A stretch of 40,938 nucleotides of DNA, from IMG/VR virus record IMGVR_UViG_3300032268_000596, positions 1 through 40,938 of that record. One strand, 5' to 3'. This DNA is from a virus. This document shows positions 1 through 40,775 of this stretch, one piece after another. The notes beneath the pieces were generated by a model. The model saw only the letters and a list, made by a program, of their open reading frames with translations, searched no databases and was not told the origin of the DNA. The first letter of the stretch is position 1. The number at the start of each line of letters is the position of its first letter. Both the position numbers and the translations under genes were made by a program.

Positions 1-537
1 CTGAACTTCTGGTGGACTATGGATAGTCTTACCGAACCCCAATGGGAAGAAGTTGCTCGCCGTTATGATGCCCTAGACCCTGCCGCCAGGGATGCCGCCA
101 GGGATGCCGCCTGGGATGCCGCCGGGTCTGCCGCCAGGGATGCCGCCAGGGATGCCGCCTGGGATGCCGCCAGATATGCCGCCAGGTATGCCGCCTGGTA
201 TGCCGCCAGGAATGCCGCCTGGGATGCCGCCTGGGATGCCGCCAGGAATGCCGCCTGGAATGCCGCCAGGGATGCCGCCTGGTATGCCGCCGGGTATGCC
301 ACTTATGAACTAATTGGTATGCATACTCTATTGAATGACGGTAAGGACTTATTGTTTGTTCCTCTTTTTGACTTTACCGGAAACTATGAACTTTAAAGTC
401 TTGATGTAAAAGAGATTGAAACAAGAATCCAACGAATCAATGATTTCATTGGACCTAAAGTTGAGGTGGAGAATGATGTCAATATGAGGGCAGAAGTCCT
501 TCAGTGTTTTATTGAAGACATTGAACTATTTGATTAA
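1..537 (+). pseudogene. Ala-rich tetrapeptide-repeat protein, interrupted by an in-frame TAA
   Basis: The frame is open from base 1 with a candidate ATG at 19. Residues about 22-95 are a tandem array of four-residue units of the type A-A-(R/W)-(D/N/Y), encoded by a 12-base DNA repeat (gatgccgccagg-like) at about 76-300. A conserved-looking tail follows and reaches TAA at 394-396. The same frame then stays open from 397 to TAA at 535-537 and reads like protein (LDVKEIETRIQRINDFIG...), without a good start codon. I read this as one gene split by a nonsense change; two separate genes is the alternative. Function unknown; the repeat would form an amphipathic helix. The 5' end may lie outside the window. 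Confidence 0.55.
76..300 (+). repeat. 12-bp tandem repeat array inside the Ala-rich gene
   Basis: About 18 tandem 12-base units with core gatgccgcc followed by agg, tgg or ggg; some units have tat or aat in place of gat. The array keeps all three + frames and one - frame open, which explains the overlapping Pro/Gly/Met and Ala/Ser open frames here; these are shadows. Confidence 0.9.
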
Positions 538-10303: not shown

Positions 10304-10310
10304 CTAAATA
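10304..10310 (+). promoter_or_regulatory. Late promoter CTAAATA
   Basis: CTAAATA directly after the terminator and 24 bases before the ATG at 10334; begins the head-type gene cluster. Confidence 0.7.
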
Positions 10311-10333: not shown

Positions 10334-10738
10334 ATGAACGGCAGTCAGTTTTGGGAACTATATCAGTCTTATGGCGATGTTTACCGCCAGGAAGTTCTTG
10401 ATGAAGAAGTGGGTGAACTTAATACCTCATACGAATATGACCTATACGATGTAGTTCTAGAGCATCTACTGAATGAAGGTTTCGCCGATACTCTTGAAGA
10501 TGCTCAAGTTCTTATGTCTAATATGAGCGAGAAATGGATTGATTCTATTGTTGAAGCATCTGAAGATAGTGAAGTTGCAGGAGAACTAGCAAGACTTCGC
10601 GGCCAAATGCGAACTGCAATGCAAAAGGGTGATGACTCATCTATTCAGTCTATTTCCCGGAGATTAGCTGAAATTCAACCCTCCGCCCGAGCCAAGATTG
10701 GTGCCGTGCTAAAAGGAAAGACTAAAAGACAAAAATGA
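10334..10738 (+). CDS. Head-type protein with the recurrent EGF/YADT helical module
   Basis: 134 residues. Residues about 37-75 hold a helical module (VVLEHLLNEGFADTLEDAQ...MSEKWIDSIVEA) that recurs in the proteins at 10926 and 23282; a basic tail follows (KGKTKRQK). Transcribed from a late-type promoter. No enzyme motif. The context suggests a prohead core or internal head protein; this is inference from composition and neighbours. Confidence 0.75.
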   Translation: MNGSQFWELYQSYGDVYRQEVLDEEVGELNTSYEYDLYDVVLEHLLNEGFADTLEDAQVLMSNMSEKWIDSIVEASEDSEVAGELARLRGQMRTAMQKGDDSSIQSISRRLAEIQPSARAKIGAVLKGKTKRQK

Positions 10739-10926
10739 AAACTTTTGACGATTTCTTAACTGAAGCAAGAGTCACAACAAAACGGGGAAGGATTCTAAGA
10801 ACTCTTTCTCGTCAAGTTAAAAAAGTTGGAAAAATTGCATTAAATTCAAAACCTGCCAAAAAAGCAAAACGATACGTTAAAGCAACTGCCACAGGCGTTG
10901 CTCTAAAACTACTCACTGGACTATAA
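10735..10926 (+). CDS. Small basic internal head-type protein with capsid-targeting-like N-terminus
   Basis: 63 residues beginning MKTFDDFLTEARV, very like T4 internal-protein capsid-targeting sequences (MKTYQEFIAEA type), where the head protease gp21 cuts after the Glu. The remainder is strongly basic (KRGR, RQVKKVGK, KKAKRYVK), as expected for a DNA-associated protein in the capsid. Overlaps the preceding gene by ATGA and the next by TAATG. Confidence 0.75.
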   Translation: MKTFDDFLTEARVTTKRGRILRTLSRQVKKVGKIALNSKPAKKAKRYVKATATGVALKLLTGL

Positions 10927-11708
10927 TGGAAGAATATCTTATTGATTATCTTATTGTTGAAGGGTATGCAAATACCGAAGGTTCTGCATATAAGATTCTT
11001 GAAGTTATTAGTGAAGGGTTTTATGAGTATCTTTTGGGTGAGGCTCTAACTCCAGAGGAGCGGGCAAGTCGCAGAAAAGATATTGAAACAAGACGGCAAC
11101 AAAATAGAGCAGTTGATCCATATCGGTCAACTTCTGGCGCACAAAAAGATAGGCCCAATCCCAGAGGTGGAGAACTGCCAACGATGGGACAAAGAGGAAG
11201 AACTGCAATTGCAAATCAAATTTTAGCAAGGGCTGGGGAAAATCCAAATAAACCACACTCTAAAGTTACAACCGGAAGAGGTTCATCGCTTATTTCCCAA
11301 TCTGATTTTTCTACCACAACTACTTCTTTTAAAGGAGTGAAGCCTGGTCAAAAATCTTCACAAGTTTTTAATCCTAATATCAGTTCAACTATTAATGTTG
11401 GTGCAAAAGTGGGTGGAACTACATCTCAAAGATATAGTAGAGACGAGTCTGATAATTTATCCAGAAGGGATTCGTCTCCAACCGAAAAGAAGAAACCCCA
11501 ACAAACAACTCAACCACCAGAATCTGCCTCGGGAAATCCAGTAAGACGTAGAGTTCTACCATCTGAGGCAAATCGTTCAACACCGCAACGACAAGCAACC
11601 GGAAGAAATCCGTCAAGAACCAATGCAAACGTAACTCAAAGGCAACTAAGAACGGGAACTAATAGAATACAAAGAGTTGTTGGTATTCAACGCCAACAAC
11701 CACAATAA
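10926..11708 (+). CDS. Low-complexity basic head-type protein with N-terminal EGYAxTE module
   Basis: 260 residues. The N-terminal 45 residues (DYLIVEGYANTEGSAYKILEVISE...) match the module at 10334 and 23282. The rest is low complexity, rich in Arg, Gln, Ser, Thr and Pro, with many RR/RK pairs, and is probably disordered. No catalytic motif. Likely packaged in or scaffolding the head; inference from module, composition and late promoter context. Confidence 0.72.
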   Translation: MEEYLIDYLIVEGYANTEGSAYKILEVISEGFYEYLLGEALTPEERASRRKDIETRRQQNRAVDPYRSTSGAQKDRPNPRGGELPTMGQRGRTAIANQILARAGENPNKPHSKVTTGRGSSLISQSDFSTTTTSFKGVKPGQKSSQVFNPNISSTINVGAKVGGTTSQRYSRDESDNLSRRDSSPTEKKKPQQTTQPPESASGNPVRRRVLPSEANRSTPQRQATGRNPSRTNANVTQRQLRTGTNRIQRVVGIQRQQPQ

Positions 11709-11711
11709 ATA
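11705..11711 (+). promoter_or_regulatory. Late promoter ATAAATA overlapping a stop codon
   Basis: ATAAATA includes the TAA stop (11706-11708) of the preceding gene and lies about 20 bases before the ATG at 11732. Confidence 0.6.
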
Positions 11712-11731
11712 GCAAATATAGTTAAGATATG

Positions 11732-12958
11732 ATGAAAACCTTCTCCGAGTTCTTATTAGAATACCGTGGAAGCCGAGCAAGTGAAAAAGCCTCCAGACTC
11801 GGCCTTATTTCAAATAAACACGGTGGATGGGTTGACCGCGCAGGAAAACTTATTGCGCAAACAGTGAGTGGTGATCTTCAGTTCGTCCAAAAAAAATCAC
11901 CATCTCCAGATAAGCCTGAAGCCAAGATAAATCCGGCTGCACAACGAGAAGCCCCGAAAGTTAAACCTGCCCAAAGTGGTGTTCGCCCCGGTATTGCTGC
12001 CCCTAAAGAACAGGAAGCTGCACCAGAAGTAGAAACTGAAAAGGTAATCACGATTGTTCTAGGAAGATTTAATCCACCGACAATAGGACACAAACGGGTT
12101 CTTGATAAGGCAAAACAAGTTGCATCCGGCGGAGAATTAAGAGTCTATCCCTCAAGACAGCAGAATAATACAACAGACCCTCTGAATCCCCCGCAGAAAA
12201 TTAAATATATGCGGAAGATGTTTCCTGAGTTTAAAAAGAAAATTGTCAACAATCAATCATTAAAAACAATTTTTGAAGTTCTTAGAAATATCTATGAAGA
12301 TGGCTTCAAGAAAGTTAATATTATTGTAGGAGCCGATAGGGTATCAGAATTTGAAAGGCTCGCAAATAAACATAATAAAGAAAAAGGAATTTATCAATTT
12401 CAAGAAATTAAAGTTATCTCCGCTGGCAATAGAGACCCAGATTCAACTGATGATGTAACAAATATGTCATCCGCTAAACTAAGAAAATCCGCAGCAGCTG
12501 ATGATTTTGTTGAGTTTAGAGCCGGTATCCCTAGAACAATGCCGCAAAAAGAAGTAGAGAATCTATTTCACGCTGTTCAACGTGGCCTAGAGAGTAAAGG
12601 GGCAGTCGCAGAGATGTGGAAGATTGCACCTAAACTGGATTACGAGAACCTAAAGGAGCAATATTATCAGAATAATATTTTCAACGTTGATGATATTGTA
12701 GAGAATCTTAATACCGGTTTGGTTGGTAGAATTACAAGACGCGGCCCAAATTATGTCATCTGTGTTACAGAAGATAATATGATGTTTAAGTCTTGGATTA
12801 AAGATATTACTGAATGGACGGATGTTTCCGGTGTTCCATCTGACCAGCGTTTAGTGGGAACCCCTGGACTTCTTAAATATGCAATGAAGATGACTGGAAC
12901 AAAGGAAATTCAAAACTTCTTGACCAATTATAGAAAGAGTAAGAAAAAATCTAAATAG
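11732..12958 (+). CDS. Capsid-targeted nucleotidyltransferase (NMNAT/cytidylyltransferase-like) fusion
   Basis: 408 residues from the second ATG (11732; 11729 is also possible). Three parts: residues 1-13 MKTFSEFLLEYRG, a T4-like capsid-targeting sequence; a Pro/Lys-rich linker (55-100); a nucleotidyltransferase core at about 104-300 with the T/HIGH-type motif GRFNPPTIGH at 111-120 and the SSAKLRKSA phosphate-binding motif at 246-254. A C-terminal domain (about 310-395) contains the stretch IVENLNTGLVGRITRRGPNY. Substrate is not determined by sequence; NAD or lipid/sugar nucleotide metabolism are options. The targeting sequence suggests delivery in the virion. Confidence 0.82.
   Translation: MKTFSEFLLEYRGSRASEKASRLGLISNKHGGWVDRAGKLIAQTVSGDLQFVQKKSPSPDKPEAKINPAAQREAPKVKPAQSGVRPGIAAPKEQEAAPEVETEKVITIVLGRFNPPTIGHKRVLDKAKQVASGGELRVYPSRQQNNTTDPLNPPQKIKYMRKMFPEFKKKIVNNQSLKTIFEVLRNIYEDGFKKVNIIVGADRVSEFERLANKHNKEKGIYQFQEIKVISAGNRDPDSTDDVTNMSSAKLRKSAAADDFVEFRAGIPRTMPQKEVENLFHAVQRGLESKGAVAEMWKIAPKLDYENLKEQYYQNNIFNVDDIVENLNTGLVGRITRRGPNYVICVTEDNMMFKSWIKDITEWTDVSGVPSDQRLVGTPGLLKYAMKMTGTKEIQNFLTNYRKSKKKSK
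12951..12957 (+). promoter_or_regulatory. Late promoter CTAAATA overlapping a stop codon
   Basis: CTAAATA runs into the TAG stop (12956-12958) of the nucleotidyltransferase gene, 26 bases before the next ATG. Confidence 0.65.
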
Positions 12959-12982
12959 TCATAAGTTCTTAATACAATCAAT

Positions 12983-14245
12983 ATGTCTGATCGCATTATT
13001 CAAGGTTTTTCTGAAATGAAAAATATTTATCTTACTCAGATTCTTACTGAAGAAAAAGAAGACGAGGATTATGGTGAAAAGTTTGAAAAGAAATATAAAA
13101 AGACTGGTAAAAAGAGCAAAGATTATGATGGTGACGGGGAAGTTGAAGATGAATCTGATGAATATGCCGGCGTAAAGGATAAAGCAATTAAGGATGCAAC
13201 AGAAGACGAAAAGCCCAAAAAGAAAAAGAGCGAAAAAGAAGATGACAATATGAAAACGGAGTCATTTTCTAGCTGGAGAGACGACCTCTATGAAGTAATC
13301 TCTAAACTAGAACCCGAACCGAAAGTGCGAGATATCGGCAATGAACAAATTACCGAAAAGCCGGTGAAAAATAAGATTACTTTAAATCCTACTGTTACCG
13401 AAAAGTTTGCGGTTATTGATTCTCAAGAACTATCTGAAGAATTTATTGTAGAAACATCTAATGCTGCTGCGGAATATTTTGCAAGTAAAGGTCTTAATGA
13501 ACACGGCCTTGAACTGGTAATTGATTATCTTGGTGAAGAGAAGTTTCTTGAATACTTATTCTATGTTGCCGAAGATTCACTTCTTACTGAAGCAGCTAAA
13601 ACTAGAAAAACTCCCGCTGAACTTAAAAGACTCAAACAGAAGAATGATGAAATAAAAGCGGAAAGTAAGAGAAAGCACGAAGAGGCAAAAGTATCCATTG
13701 CTAAAAAAATGACACAAAGCAAAGGGGATGAGGCAGTTAAAACTGCAGTAAGCCAGCAGCCCAAAACCAAGTCAAATTCCAATGCCAATAAAGAGAAACT
13801 TAAAAATGTAACAAAAGGAGTTTTTGCAACTTTAGCCCAGTCTGCAAGAGAAGGAATTGATAGAGACATTCGGGCGAGAGATGCACGTAAATCTGCAAAA
13901 GCCTCTGGTAAAGGGGTTGGGGGACAAATTGGTGCAGCACTTAAAGCTGCTTTCTATAAGCCAGAATTTAGAGAATGGGTTGAAAGATTAATTGATCAAG
14001 GCTACGACCTTTCCGAATGCACTCTAGGCCAATTGACCGAAAGATACGACTTTCTTGTAGAAAAGGCGACAAGCGAGCAGCAACAAAAAATCTTTGGTCT
14101 TGCTCTTTCTGTTAAGCGCGGCGAAACTCCACGCTCAAAAGTTAGCGATAAAGTTCTAGAAATGGTTGATGGTATGTCTGAGGCAGAACTCCGCAAGTTT
14201 GCGGCAACCAAGCATAAAGGTATTCCTCAAAAGAAAGAAGAATGA
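12983..14245 (+). CDS. Head-type protein with acidic DxDGDG segment and basic C-terminus
   Basis: 420 residues. Near residues 45-62 there is DYDGDGEVEDESDEY, which resembles a calcium-binding loop, then a Lys/Glu-rich segment. Residues about 155-200 are helical and end with FYVAEDSLLTEA, a possible head-protease site. A long Lys/Ala-rich region follows, and a C-terminal helical part (REWVERLIDQGYDL...). Cyanophage head-cluster proteins often have this layout. No enzymatic motif. Overlaps the next gene by ATGA. Confidence 0.72.
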   Translation: MSDRIIQGFSEMKNIYLTQILTEEKEDEDYGEKFEKKYKKTGKKSKDYDGDGEVEDESDEYAGVKDKAIKDATEDEKPKKKKSEKEDDNMKTESFSSWRDDLYEVISKLEPEPKVRDIGNEQITEKPVKNKITLNPTVTEKFAVIDSQELSEEFIVETSNAAAEYFASKGLNEHGLELVIDYLGEEKFLEYLFYVAEDSLLTEAAKTRKTPAELKRLKQKNDEIKAESKRKHEEAKVSIAKKMTQSKGDEAVKTAVSQQPKTKSNSNANKEKLKNVTKGVFATLAQSAREGIDRDIRARDARKSAKASGKGVGGQIGAALKAAFYKPEFREWVERLIDQGYDLSECTLGQLTERYDFLVEKATSEQQQKIFGLALSVKRGETPRSKVSDKVLEMVDGMSEAELRKFAATKHKGIPQKKEE

Positions 14246-14622
14246 AAACATTTGAACAGTTTTTCGGTGAAGCTCACGCATCTCAAAGAGATATTAAAGG
14301 CTCTGAACGTTTTCTAAGTGGAGCACACGGGACAATAAATGTTTCTTCAACAAGAAGAAGCAAAGAGGAAAAAGATAGAGCCCAACGCTTGTCAAATTTA
14401 CCAGCCGGAACTGGAACCTCTGCTTTGGCTGCACAGAGAGACATTCAAAGGCAGAGAGAAGCTCAAACAACCGAACAAGAGAGAAAGGACAAACTTACAA
14501 AAGCCGCTGAAATCCTGGCGGCTCGTCAACAAGACCCTGAACAGAAAGCGAAAAGAGAAAAAGCAGAAAAAGCTAGAGCAAGAAGCGCACAAAGAGCCGC
14601 GAGAAAAGCACAAAACTCCTAA
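14242..14622 (+). CDS. Basic coiled-coil internal head-type protein with capsid-targeting-like N-terminus
   Basis: 126 residues. Starts MKTFEQFFGEAHA, the third protein in this cluster with an MKTF..F..E start. The remainder is an Arg/Lys/Ala/Glu-rich helix ending in KAEKARARSAQRAARK. Likely a head internal protein that is cut after Glu10. The overlapping frame at 14339 is a shadow. The stop TAA is embedded in a CTAAATA motif. Confidence 0.75.
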   Translation: MKTFEQFFGEAHASQRDIKGSERFLSGAHGTINVSSTRRSKEEKDRAQRLSNLPAGTGTSALAAQRDIQRQREAQTTEQERKDKLTKAAEILAARQQDPEQKAKREKAEKARARSAQRAARKAQNS

Positions 14623-15015: not shown

Positions 15016-15023
15016 CATAAATA
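15016..15023 (+). promoter_or_regulatory. Late promoter CATAAATA
   Basis: CATAAATA between the terminator and the virion protein gene, 33 bases before its ATG. Confidence 0.7.
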
Positions 15024-15055: not shown

Positions 15056-15826
15056 ATGGCTCTCTGGGGAATTTCAACAACTACTGAAACCGCTGCAAAC
15101 CGGTATGGTATTCCTAAGTTTCTTAAAGAAGTGGACAGAAACAGAACACCACACAACTGCTTTGCGGACGAAAGGGGGTGGATTTATCGTATCTATGGCA
15201 GTAACGAGCAATCTGGTCTTTCCACTTCTTACTATGATGAAGTTCTAGTACCAGTTGCAGGTCTTAATACTGTTGGTTTCGGTTCAAATACTACCGGACT
15301 TGGCCGTGCTACTCCCGTGGCAGTATTTTTTGAAGACTCTAATCGCTCCTCACCTATTTCTATTGGAGCTGGCGGCACTTCTGGCATTGGAACCGGTAGA
15401 AATGGTTTTGTTCATCTAGTTTTTAACGAAATTGTGAACGTTTCTGCTGGTGCTACTGTACTCATCAATCAATTTACGGCTACTGGTACTCCAACCGGCA
15501 CGCCAATTGTTGCTACTGCCCGCTCATTTGCAAATGGCGCAACTGTAACCAACTTCGTCAACGGTCAATCATTTAGAACAAATACATGTTATAACGGTCA
15601 AATCACTAATCGCGTTGCCTTTGCTTTTACTGCTCCTGCAACAGGTATTGGCTCCGTTCTTAGAATTGACACAGGTAAAGGCTTTATTGGAGTTATTACC
15701 GACTTCTCTGGTGGTGTTGGCGTAACTTCTGCCTTTACTGCCGATATGATTCGTAATATTGGTGGTGCGGGGGCCTTTGGTTCTGGCGTAGGCATTGGTA
15801 CTACTACTCTTACAATCTTTGCCTGA
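15056..15826 (+). CDS. Virion structural protein (cyanophage MALWG family)
   Basis: 256 residues. The MALWG start, the segment RNRTPHNCFADERGWIYRIYG (about residues 29-49) and LVPVAGLNTVG are like a structural protein family common in T4-like cyanophages. The rest is a Gly/Thr/Ser-rich beta-type sequence. Late promoter upstream, terminator before it. Its exact place in the particle is not shown by the sequence. Confidence 0.78.
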   Translation: MALWGISTTTETAANRYGIPKFLKEVDRNRTPHNCFADERGWIYRIYGSNEQSGLSTSYYDEVLVPVAGLNTVGFGSNTTGLGRATPVAVFFEDSNRSSPISIGAGGTSGIGTGRNGFVHLVFNEIVNVSAGATVLINQFTATGTPTGTPIVATARSFANGATVTNFVNGQSFRTNTCYNGQITNRVAFAFTAPATGIGSVLRIDTGKGFIGVITDFSGGVGVTSAFTADMIRNIGGAGAFGSGVGIGTTTLTIFA

Positions 15827-15833
15827 CCTCTAA

Positions 15834-16223
15834 ATGCAATTTAATGAATTGAATGAAGAAAACTTTCTTCTTTTTGCTATAAAAAATTATGAAAACCCCC
15901 AGGCAATAACCAAAGAAGACTTTGATAAAGACTTGAATCATTTTAAGTATATCAAACGTCTTCTTAAAAAATATAAAAAGACTGGGGAGCTGAAAGTTCA
16001 TCTTCTTCTTAATCATATTGTAATACTTTATAATATTTTTGGAGAAGCCGCAACTCCTATGCTATTTTTTAAAAACGACTTTGAAGTATGGAATACGATT
16101 AAAACTTTTATTGTATTTTTAAATCGTCTCCCGGAGTACCCGAAAAGCGACATCCATTGGATAGAAGAAGATCAATATTGTAAACGAGAACTTCTTGGGA
16201 TTGAAGATGACACCCTTAGATAG
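15834..16223 (+). CDS. Conserved hypothetical protein of T4-like cyanophages
   Basis: 129 residues, eight bases after the virion gene. Contains KDLNHFKYIKRLLKKYKKTGELKVHLLLNHIVILYNIFG, a pattern I associate with a small conserved cyanophage protein of unknown function. Mostly helical. Overlaps the next gene by 17 bases. Confidence 0.72.
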   Translation: MQFNELNEENFLLFAIKNYENPQAITKEDFDKDLNHFKYIKRLLKKYKKTGELKVHLLLNHIVILYNIFGEAATPMLFFKNDFEVWNTIKTFIVFLNRLPEYPKSDIHWIEEDQYCKRELLGIEDDTLR

Positions 16224-16428
16224 AGTAATAACAATTATACGCGAAGATTTAATGACTGCTAATCCCGTGGGGGAAGGTGGAGGATTCGGTGCAGATGCCA
16301 AAGATCCAAGAGCTGGATTTGACCCGGTGATGGGCTTAATGAAAAGGAAATCTGGCTTGATTGATAGAAGAGGTAGAAATTATAAGCGGCAATATGATGC
16401 ATGGCTCCGCACATCTGGGTTACTCTGA
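16207..16428 (+). CDS. Small conserved late protein (73 aa)
   Basis: The ATG at 16207 is preferred over an upstream in-frame TTG. MTPLDRVITIIREDL, then a Gly-rich segment and a basic C-terminus (RRGRNYKRQYDAW). Resembles small proteins in the late region of cyanophages; function unknown. Confidence 0.68.
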   Translation: MTPLDRVITIIREDLMTANPVGEGGGFGADAKDPRAGFDPVMGLMKRKSGLIDRRGRNYKRQYDAWLRTSGLL

Positions 16429-31087: not shown

Positions 31088-32230
31088 ATGAATTTACTCA
31101 GAGGCATCACTGACATTTTTCCCGCAATTACACCTGAAGAATTTTTTGCATATCCAAAAAGAGTGAAGTTAGGATTTGACCCAACATCAAACTTTCTACA
31201 CCTGGGTCACTCTATTCTTCTTCGTAAACTTCAGGCATTTCAAAATCAAGGTCACTCGCCAGTAATAATTATTGGAGATTTTACTGCAAGAATTGGTGAC
31301 CCATCTGGTAAATCTAACACGAGAAAACAGCTTACAAAAGAGGAAGTAGAAGCAAATATTGATAACTTTATTCAAACAGTATCAAGATTTATTGACCTAG
31401 AAAAATCTGAATTAGTTTTCAATTCTCATCATTTAGAAACACTGAATCTTACCGAAATTATTAAACTTCAGTCTTTAATGACTGTTCAACAACTTATTGC
31501 CAAACAGGACTTTTCTAATAGAATTGAATCTCAAACTCCTATTGGTTTACACGAATTTATGTACCCCTTACTTCAGGGATATGATAGTCTTCAAGTACAA
31601 TCAGACATCGAATTGGGTGGAACAGACCAAAAATTCAATGTTGGTTTGGGTAGGGATGTTCAGAAACATTTTGGTTCTCAAACTCAACAAGTGGGTATGT
31701 TAATGCCAATTCTTGTTGGAACTGACGGAACCCAAAAGATGTCTAAAAGTCTTAATAATGCAATTGGAATTGATGAGCATCCAATTCAAATGTTCTCTAA
31801 ACTTGAAAAAATTCCTGACCATTTAGTTGATGACTTTATCACTCTTTTAACTGATTGTGAAATAAGTCAATTTTCTAGTAATCCGAGAGAGAAGCAGAAA
31901 CAAATGGCATTTGAGGTCGTCTCCATTTTTCACGGCAGTCGTAATGCAGTTAAGGCAATGAAGGATGCAGAATCTCTTGTTTTTGCCGGTTCAACTGATG
32001 CAGAAGTTCCTGAAGTTTCAATTAAAGATATTGAGTTTCCTTGCCGTTTAGTAAATGTGCTCAAAACCTTAAATTTGGTAGAAAGTACAAGTGATGCTAG
32101 ACGTAAAGTAAAATCTGGTTCTGTTAAATTAAATGGAGTTAAAATTGTAGACGAAAATCATATGATTGATGATACGATTTCCGATCAAATTGTGCAATTA
32201 TCAAAAAGTCAGTTTTTTAAACTCGTGTAG
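31088..32230 (+). CDS. tyrS: Tyrosyl-tRNA synthetase
   Basis: 380 residues, class Ic synthetase. HIGH-type motif HLGHS at 38-42, GDFTARIGDPSGK at 63-75, the Tyr-site region QGYDSLQVQSDIELGGTDQKFN at about 163-184, KMSKS at 217-221, and a C-terminal S4 RNA-binding domain from about 315 to 375. Complete though slightly short of most bacterial enzymes. It charges tRNA-Tyr; no tRNA-Tyr gene is in the window. Own early promoter. Confidence 0.96.
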   Translation: MNLLRGITDIFPAITPEEFFAYPKRVKLGFDPTSNFLHLGHSILLRKLQAFQNQGHSPVIIIGDFTARIGDPSGKSNTRKQLTKEEVEANIDNFIQTVSRFIDLEKSELVFNSHHLETLNLTEIIKLQSLMTVQQLIAKQDFSNRIESQTPIGLHEFMYPLLQGYDSLQVQSDIELGGTDQKFNVGLGRDVQKHFGSQTQQVGMLMPILVGTDGTQKMSKSLNNAIGIDEHPIQMFSKLEKIPDHLVDDFITLLTDCEISQFSSNPREKQKQMAFEVVSIFHGSRNAVKAMKDAESLVFAGSTDAEVPEVSIKDIEFPCRLVNVLKTLNLVESTSDARRKVKSGSVKLNGVKIVDENHMIDDTISDQIVQLSKSQFFKLV

Positions 32231-33076: not shown

Positions 33077-33300
33077 CAGATACTGAAAAACTATTATTTC
33101 TCAACAGGGTTCTCAAACAATACGCAGAGGCAAAACACTGCTACGACAGAGATAAGTTTTATGATGTTTATGATGAGAGGGACATTAGTGAAATTGTGGA
33201 ACACGCAGAAGAATACGCTGAAATTCTCTTTGCCCACACTCTATTAGAACAAATTGGTGAAACTTTTGAATACCCTTGTATGGAGAAAGAAAATGATTGA
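33073..33300 (+). CDS. Small acidic hypothetical protein (75 aa)
   Basis: MTDTEKLLFLNRVLKQYAEA and onward; helical, acidic. ATGA overlap with the upstream gene. Function unknown. Confidence 0.62.
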   Translation: MTDTEKLLFLNRVLKQYAEAKHCYDRDKFYDVYDERDISEIVEHAEEYAEILFAHTLLEQIGETFEYPCMEKEND

Positions 33301-33796
33301 CCCATTTGATAAGTTAATAGAAGAAATCCGAGAGAAATATAGATTGTCTTGGGAGAAATCTCTAGAAGAATTTGAAAAGTTTTGTAAATTTCAGGATGAT
33401 GACTTCAAGTTTGCAATAAAATACGGACACTTTTTCCCGAGAATTACTCTTGAAAAGATTGTAGTAGAAGCAAAATCAAGAAAGTTGAGAGCCGAGTATA
33501 GTCTAGAGGTTCTTCCAGATATAGCGTCTTATAATCTGGATTCATTTAGGGAATTACTTTTTAAAATGCAAGAGGAAGAAAATTCAAAGAATTATAATTC
33601 CATCATAATGCACCCAGACATTGCTAAACTAATTGAAGATTACAATAATCAAAACGCCACTCAAAAATTCTTACAGAAAATTAAGTGGGGTTTTGATGAT
33701 TGTCGTGATAACTTTAGAAACTGGCGAGGACATATGAAAGGTGAAGATTGGGATTTTTGGGAGATTTTGAGTGGTGAGGAGACTGGTTATGAATGA
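33293..33796 (+). CDS. Hypothetical protein (167 aa)
   Basis: ATG 33293 preceded by GGAGAAAG; the upstream frame from 33254 is rejected. Charged and helical, with an acidic, Trp-rich C-terminus (GEDWDFWEILSGEE). The largest gene of the early cluster. Function unknown. Confidence 0.68.
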   Translation: MIDPFDKLIEEIREKYRLSWEKSLEEFEKFCKFQDDDFKFAIKYGHFFPRITLEKIVVEAKSRKLRAEYSLEVLPDIASYNLDSFRELLFKMQEEENSKNYNSIIMHPDIAKLIEDYNNQNATQKFLQKIKWGFDDCRDNFRNWRGHMKGEDWDFWEILSGEETGYE

Positions 33797-40156: not shown

Positions 40157-40420
40157 ATGGCAGAAATCACAAAAGAACAATTTATTGAAAAGTATGGAAC
40201 GGTAAAGGTAAAATTTGAGTCAGACTACAAATATACGTTTACTTATAGTGCAACACTTCCAGACAGTAAAACTATTTCTGTTGGTTATGGTGGTAATTCA
40301 GATGATATCTATAAATTTAGTGTTAACTCTGATTCGGAGCAAACTATTGAAGATTGTTATCCTTATACCGGTACAGTTTATGGTGGTGATGTAGAGATGG
40401 AGTATTTTTATGAATACTGA
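40157..40420 (+). CDS. Hypothetical protein (87 aa)
   Basis: ATG 40157; the upstream in-frame TTG is rejected. MAEITKEQFIEKYGTVKVKF and onward, beta-type, acidic. Overlaps the Pth2 gene by 11 bases. Function unknown. Confidence 0.62.
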   Translation: MAEITKEQFIEKYGTVKVKFESDYKYTFTYSATLPDSKTISVGYGGNSDDIYKFSVNSDSEQTIEDCYPYTGTVYGGDVEMEYFYEY

Positions 40421-40775
40421 AGAAAATAAACTACAACAAGTCATCGTAATCCGCAAAGACTTAAATATGCGTAAGGGTAAGATGGTTGCACAAGGCGCAC
40501 ACGCCTCTGTGGCTGCCGTTCTACCACATCTAACTGATTGGAGGGTCAAAGAGTGGCTAAAGGTGGCATTTACTAAGATTTGCGTATCAGTGGATTCTGA
40601 AGAAGAACTTTTAGCCATCTACGATAAAGCAAAACTAACCAATCAAATTTGCGAGATTATTGAAGACTCTGGACTTACCGAATTTAAAGGGGTTAAGACC
40701 CTTACTTGCTGTGCCATTGGTCCTGCAACAAAGGAAGAACTTCAGGATATTACTGGTCATTTGAAGTTGCTGTAG
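40410..40775 (+). CDS. pth2: Peptidyl-tRNA hydrolase 2 (Pth2)
   Basis: 121 residues. Releases tRNA from stalled or dropped-off peptidyl-tRNA. Pth2 pattern is clear: QVIVIRKDLNMRKGKMVAQGAHASVAA at 10-36 and the C-terminal VKTLTCCAIGPATKEELQDITGHLKLL. Pth2 is the archaeal/eukaryotic type, found in some bacteria and phages. Fits with the synthetases and tRNA genes nearby. Confidence 0.93.
   Translation: MNTEENKLQQVIVIRKDLNMRKGKMVAQGAHASVAAVLPHLTDWRVKEWLKVAFTKICVSVDSEEELLAIYDKAKLTNQICEIIEDSGLTEFKGVKTLTCCAIGPATKEELQDITGHLKLL

Follow-up and report, generated by a model that had tools for sequence, protein, structure and literature searches.

The window, that is, the entire 40.9-kb virus fragment analyzed here, belongs to a T4-like marine phage with a cyanophage-like character. 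From a reading of the open reading frames (ORFs), we take the replication genes to follow the cyanophage order (clamp loader, regA, gene 43, uvsX, gene 41, and mazG), and the genes 3' of the cluster under study are presumably those for a DUF7207 protein, gene 61 primase, nrdA, and nrdB. The cluster spans positions 10334 to about 16428 and is flanked by gene 41/mazG and gene 61 (Table 1). The original prediction described three gene starts of the form MKTF..F..E in this region, and all three are present: MKTFDDFLTEA (10735), MKTFSEFLLEY (11732), and MKTFEQFFGEA (14242). The first and the third each overlap the stop of the preceding gene. The longest ORF of the middle one, which encodes a nucleotidyltransferase, opens one codon upstream at 11729 (MMKTF..., 409 aa); 11732 is its second ATG and agrees with the start in close relatives.

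Table 1. Features of the cluster and late-promoter-like sites in the window
Feature	Position	Strand	Details
Late-promoter-like CTAAATA	10304..10310	+	24 bases before 10334
134-aa protein	10334..10738	+	Longer helical leader-like stretch ending SIVE|A
63-aa basic protein	10735..10926	+	Leader MKTFDDFLTE (10735-10764); proposed cut E10|A11
260-aa basic protein	10926..11708	+	39-residue leader ending LLGE|A
Late-promoter-like ATAAATA	11705..11711	+	18 bases before 11729
HxGH nucleotidyltransferase ("cytidyltransferase", phrog_395)	11729..12958	+	Leader MKTFSEFLLE (11732-11761); proposed cut E10|Y11; GLxSdGHG-type module at residues ~20-55, nucleotidyltransferase domain ~103-289, C-terminal domain ~310-360
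Late-promoter-like CTAAATA	12951..12957	+	26 bases before 12983
420-aa protein, C-terminal DUF3008	12983..14245	+	Same position as the virion proteins S-SZBM1_139 and S-SCSM1_92/93 (counterparts assigned by position and by partial sequence likeness judged by eye)
126-aa basic protein	14242..14622	+	Leader MKTFEQFFGE (14242-14271); proposed cut E10|A11
Late-promoter-like ATAAATA	15017..15023	+	33 bases before 15056
256-aa protein starting MALWG	15056..15826	+	Same position as the virion proteins S-SZBM1_136 and S-SCSM1_95
77-aa protein	16195..16428	+	Contains a segment resembling the N-terminal arm of mature gp23; same position as the virion proteins S-SCSM1_97 and S-CREM2 gp160

The shared start exceeds its expected count. 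Across the window, ATGAARACNTTY occurs three times against 0.41 expected, a count reached in one of 100 shuffles. Matches to M-K-x-[FY]-x-x-F-x-x-E number three in the window, six in G001 (a 243-kb close relative of the window virus), and three in T4 (ipII, ipIII, and 61.1). The reversed control pattern is absent from these three sequences and occurs once in S-SZBM1. The leader of T4 IPII and IPIII (MKTYQEFIAE|A) agrees with that of the window proteins in its length, its N-terminal position, and residues 1, 2, 4 (F/Y), 7, 8, and 10. Both sets consist mostly of small basic bodies and are found by one pattern. However, the bodies are unrelated as far as tested, and the window set includes one enzyme. 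The host also differs from that of T4 and is most likely a cyanobacterium, judging from relatives.

In T4 IPIII, mutagenesis assigned targeting to residues 4 and 7 and processing to residues 8 and 10, and the head protease gp21 cleaves after L/I-x-E (PMC9026906). In all three window proteins, the N-terminal leader is ten residues long and has aromatic residues at positions 4 and 7, which are invariant in tagged relatives. Residues 8-10 read LTE at 10735 and LLE at 11732; FGE at 14242 deviates at residue 8, where the G001 counterpart (MKTFEQFLGEA) has L. In the enzyme, the residue after the proposed cut is Y instead of A. No gp21-type protease is encoded within the 40.9-kb window, and G001 possesses one (E 1.7e-35) together with gp22 and gp23.

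Conservation in the enzyme family indicates which leader positions matter. Six peptide patterns retrieved the starts of 57 environmental relatives, and 55 of them fit M[KR]x[FY]xxF[ILV]xE; the remaining two read MKTFSLFLEST, in which the Glu comes one position too soon. Across 28 distinct 30-base leader sequences, F4, F7, and E10 never change and residue 8 is restricted to I, L, or V, with residues 3, 5, 6, and 9 being highly variable. Third codon bases vary, and this retention of fixed residues despite synonymous change places the leader under protein-level selection. The conserved positions match those assigned to targeting and cleavage in T4. This agreement was not built into the sample, since only one of the six search patterns covers the leader and the leaders of relatives mostly miss it. 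The linker between leader and enzyme domain differs strongly in length and sequence. Four homologues from phages outside the group, 172-190 aa in length, consist of the bare domain and lack the leader. The cyanophage P-HM2 also has a bare form, and S-PM2 carries the domain as the final part of a 591-aa DUF6267 protein that has no such leader. The tag-free forms outside the group and in P-HM2 mark the leader as a trait of the marine T4-like branch that can be lost.

The leader is not confined to this enzyme. A scan of IMG/VR with a DNA pattern for MK[ST..]FxxFIxEA returned at least 125 matches; among the 125 listed, 122 open a frame of at least 40 aa. After removal of the first 11 residues, proteins of at least 60 aa in this listed set fall into 43 body families (BLASTP, E 1e-4). 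Pfam matches of the tagged bodies include HxGH nucleotidyltransferases, either single or fused to a P-loop kinase as in NadR, as well as DUF6267, GNAT acetyltransferase, AAA_33 kinase, adenylate kinase, S-adenosylmethionine lyase, and glucosaminidase. The tagged L116 protein matches a phage deoxyribonucleotidase family; PDB sequence searches with the L148 and L116 proteins gave no useful match. An ADP-ribosyltransferase look of L118, L148, and the first L107 ORF comes from motif reading only and is not claimed. Three of the 12 larger tagged contigs encode gp21, and the same three alone reach gp23, so that the other nine are uninformative on gp21.

Such a short motif could in principle recur by chance or through codon bias at gene starts, and its relaxed form does appear in one of the 167 undetected genes of S-CREM2. 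Two permuted patterns, built from the same codons in another order, gave only two matches and one match in the whole of IMG/VR, with no convincing gene start, against the at least 125 of the true pattern. These scans rule out a chance likeness, whose probability we regard as negligible. The near-absence of reversed matches noted above and the fixed residues with varying codons also argue against it. Together with the synteny and virion proteomes of relatives considered below, these results support the proposed T4-type capsid-targeting sequence.

Particle proteomes of related phages bear on packing. The enzyme (T4-GC190) was detected in S-SM1 particles; in S-PM2, it was listed as encoded and went undetected (Sullivan 2010, PMC3037559). 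It was also found in virions of S-SZBM1 (PMC9146016), S-SCSM1 (PMC9602691), and S-CREM2 (PMC10665884). Translated starts of the detected proteins read MKKFSAFLNEA in S-SM1, MKSFLQFLKEA in S-SCSM1, and MKNFSSFLTEA in S-CREM2, and that of S-SZBM1 (MRFRQFIIEA) is a close form of the tag. All 219 genes of S-CREM2 were compared with its 52 detected proteins. The strict motif marks three proteins, all detected (p 0.013), and the relaxed motif marks eight, seven of them detected (p 2e-4), the latter value being optimistic as the motif was widened after some S-CREM2 proteins had been seen. Among these seven, gp122 belongs to the baseplate and was probably matched by chance. The tag occurs on four of six virion proteins that the authors named non-structural: the SAM lyase gp6, the "Cas9" gp12 (a label for which Pfam gave no supporting hit), the kinase gp14, and the enzyme gp154. 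The same comparison in S-SZBM1 was not significant. In the syntenic cluster of S-SCSM1, ORFs 89-93, 95, and 97 are annotated as virion proteins, and 94 and 96 are not. Two further tagged proteins, SSCSM1_30 (elsewhere in that genome) and SSZBM1_191, are unreported in virions.

These detections could also reflect an auxiliary metabolic enzyme of the usual kind, produced in the cell and contaminating particle preparations, with the leader serving something else. Contamination is raised in two of the proteome papers (one being PMC9602691), peptide numbers are low (three in S-CREM2, PMC10665884; two in S-SZBM1, PMC9146016), and tag-free forms of the enzyme exist. Yet the enzyme was detected repeatedly, in four phages, the same short leader precedes 43 unrelated body families among the matches listed, and two thirds of the non-structural S-CREM2 virion proteins carry it. 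We consider contamination very improbable. At least two of the four proteome studies could not tell packing from contamination, and the conserved leader favors packing. The predicted presence of the nucleotidyltransferase in the head thus gains support from tagged homologues in the virions of four phages, along with leader conservation, pattern controls, and synteny.

Expression signals point in the same direction. Four sites of the form [AC]TAAATA, which we take to resemble the T4-type late promoter, precede genes of the cluster (Table 1), and they too argue against an ordinary enzyme made in the cell. In the window, 28 such sites lie on the coding strand and three on the other, and a site is located 15-45 bases upstream of 10 of the 41 gene starts, compared with 0.9 under random placement. 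The total is not enriched (31 vs 25), and the non-random signal lies solely in strand bias and position; TATAAATA likewise showed no enrichment. Late timing is easier to reconcile with a head protein than with an early metabolic enzyme.

The two small tagged proteins had been described as having basic tails, and the charges computed beyond residue 10 agree: net charge +16 and pI 12.0 for the 63-aa protein, and +12 and 10.9 for the 126-aa protein. Both cargos probably bind packed DNA. Orthologues of the 63-aa protein occur in L078 (87% identity) and L004 (66 aa), and its tblastn search against phage records gave only chance matches. IMG/VR scans returned three loci for the 63-aa protein and one for the 126-aa protein, scarcity that suggests fast-evolving or lineage-specific bodies. 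In profile searches, the sole match of the 63-aa protein to a T4 internal protein family was phrog_8765, at E 0.059.

The original focus on the tagged trio proved too narrow: several neighboring genes likewise have homologues among virion proteins, and many unrelated proteins of related phages bear the tag. The basic character of the two small proteins, together with the adjoining head-core and gp23-arm-like proteins, is compatible with an alternative in which the leader targets the prohead core and the proteins act inside the particle, in DNA condensation, head assembly, or maturation, instead of in the host. We find this explanation unlikely, though less so than contamination. Tagged adenylate kinase, SAM lyase, and NadR-like bodies have no evident head-building role, and T4 internal proteins bearing the same leader are injected (PMC12373910).

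Of the three tagged proteins, the middle one was predicted to contain a nucleotidyltransferase domain, and profile searches confirm this assignment (Pfam CTP_transf_like, 6.7e-06; phrog_395, 6.1e-86). Its place adjoining gene 41/mazG, in the order seen in S-SZBM1, S-SM1, and S-SCSM1, agrees with membership in phrog_395, and identity to most relatives is 44-52%. A structural model of residues 103-289 matches PPAT and NMNAT structures to the same degree (Z 12.6-13.8, rmsd ~3), the remainder of the model being of low confidence. The T/HxGH and S..K.R motifs of the adenylyltransferase fold are present, and 26 relatives all retain R112, T117, G119, H120, S246, K249, and R251. On this modeled fold, we assign the protein to the HxGH-superfamily adenylyltransferases of PPAT/NMNAT type. 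It shares the fold and the GRFxPxxxGH and S..K.R motifs with NadM/NadR and PPAT, but it has T for the first H of HxGH, shows 11-21% identity in structural matches, and misses the equivalog cut-offs; the nadR_NMN_Atrans match (E 0.0017) is far below its threshold. A PDB sequence search with the enzyme profile gave no useful match, the best being NMNAT (E 0.86). As a best guess from fold and context, the substrate is NMN or a related nucleotide. The leaning toward NMN comes from the GRFxPxxxGH form and from the tagged relative L112, in which the domain is fused to a P-loop kinase in the manner of NadR. The label "cytidyltransferase" names a superfamily and does not argue for CTP.

Current evidence makes it very probable that the three starts are T4-type capsid-targeting sequences in a late cluster that produces head cargo, one of them an enzyme, which would be cut and injected. 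From the sequence and from virion data on homologues, as opposed to this phage itself, we conclude that the leader is a putative working capsid-targeting sequence and that the nucleotidyltransferase is probably packed in the head. In the proposed mechanism, F4 and F7 of the leader would bind the protein to the prohead scaffold core, and a gp21-type head protease would cleave after Glu10 at L/I-x-E. The mature protein would remain with the packaged DNA and enter the host at infection. One cargo would be the adenylyltransferase, whose substrate is most likely NMN or a related nucleotide, and the carried enzyme could be active ahead of any phage gene expression, perhaps keeping up NAD+. The data suggest that enzymes travel into the host with the phage DNA. 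Phage NAD+ pathways are known, and NAD+ supply against an NAD-depleting defense is one possible benefit of a packed enzyme.

An enzyme carried in the head has a parallel in T4 Alt, which is not known to have the ten-residue leader. Alt is a head-packed ADP-ribosyltransferase processed by gp21 (PMC9026906). The window enzyme would likewise be carried in the head and cut by the head protease, but the enzyme families differ. The cyanophage cytidyltransferase/NMNAT-like virion protein (T4-GC190, phrog_395) shares family, synteny, and mostly the leader with the window enzyme, although the papers covered here report it in virions with no stated targeting mechanism. The T4 capsid-targeting sequence as a kind and the presence of the enzyme in particles are thus already known. 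In the open literature, we did not find the link between tag and packed enzyme, the range of enzyme cargos, or the marine spread of the tag; searches on capsid targeting and cyanophage gave one review only, and those on marine phage N-terminal effectors gave none.

A broader proposition, for and against which we see the balance as even, is that marine T4-like phages use the tag as a general portable loading leader, sometimes with a GLxSdGHG module, to mark changing enzymes (NadR/NMNAT-like, adenylate kinase, SAM lyase, GNAT, kinase, and DUF6267) for delivery into the host before phage genes are expressed. If true, searching with the tag would uncover injected phage proteins, and a packed NMNAT-like enzyme would represent a ready-made NAD+ supply against an NAD-depleting defense. 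The conserved leader itself would carry the T4 rule, by which a ten-residue stretch directs a protein into the head, over to phages abundant in the ocean and broaden it beyond small inhibitors to include enzymes. A simple sequence key already pulls many unrelated candidate injected proteins from metagenomes.

Two further shared elements were observed. In many tagged enzymes, the tag is followed by about 35 residues of the form LGLxSDGHGxWxDxxGxxxAxTxxGxL. The same module occurs in S-CREM2 gp12, in its S-H34 relative, and in the kinase of S-H34, and it is modeled as a small beta element (pLDDT ~80). The 10334 and 10926 proteins begin instead with a helical-looking stretch ending L/I-x-E|A. A regular expression for this long leader found none in S-CREM2 or S-SZBM1, which limits it to some phages. 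A stretch like that of the 10334 protein is present in S-SCSM1_89, annotated as a virion protein. In G001, a deletion of ~230 bases has brought the body of the 10926 protein behind the short tag, and this single case of the same body behind either leader suggests that both leaders do the same job.

The window encodes, shortly upstream of gene 61, a small protein similar to the N-terminal arm of the mature major capsid protein of G001, a 243-kb close relative of the phage. T4 61.1 (L083), S-SCSM1_97, and S-CREM2 gp160, small proteins likewise encoded just upstream of gene 61, each resemble the corresponding arm of their own phage's mature major capsid protein. With the G001 protein as reference for the window and each phage's own capsid protein for the other three, the capsid-arm alignment score exceeded 500 of 500 shuffles in each of the four phages. 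Two of these four proteins, S-SCSM1_97 and S-CREM2 gp160, are reported as virion proteins. The N-terminus of T4 61.1 also matches the capsid-targeting tag (MKTFKEFIKE). Elsewhere in the window, a 180-aa ORF matches Pfam Gp23 over 38 residues (E 1e-6); this stretch may be a fragment of a capsid protein or a further mimic.

In G001, a deletion of ~230 bases puts the short tag where the window protein starting at 10926 has the longer leader. A second G001 cluster holds three further tagged ORFs (at 223706, 223936, and 224574), along with another three that carry the longer leader instead.

Tagged DUF6267 proteins (L101, L144, L130) contain a KxDG motif, which is nucleic acid ligase-like, and in cyanophage S-PM2 the nucleotidyltransferase is fused to DUF6267. 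The tag and the GLxSdGHG module both occur on S-CREM2 gp12, which is annotated as a Cas9 nuclease and matched no Pfam family.

Locations of the genes and proteins discussed
Feature	Location
Capsid-arm-like protein before gene 61, window	16195-16428
S-SCSM1_97, capsid-arm-like protein before gene 61	L084 33121-33306
S-CREM2 gp160, capsid-arm-like protein before gene 61	L062 28342-29235
ORF with Gp23-like piece, window	33254-33796
G001 short tag in place of longer leader	L074 4622-5377 (reverse complement)
G001 second cluster (L076)	G001:C1:220082-225327
S-PM2 nucleotidyltransferase-DUF6267 fusion	L094 4795-6570
S-CREM2 gp12	L059 7704-10313
Repeat-bearing protein, window	19-396
Tyrosyl-tRNA synthetase-like gene, window	31088-32230
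PTH2 gene, window	40410-40775

Among other window genes, one encodes a repeat-bearing protein (repeat form of 11 protein letters, not shown) that had zero matches in a Pfam search. Another resembles tyrosyl-tRNA synthetase (tRNA-synt_1b, E 9.4e-70), to our knowledge an unusual gene for a phage of this kind, and a third encodes the peptidyl-tRNA hydrolase PTH2 (E 6.7e-33).
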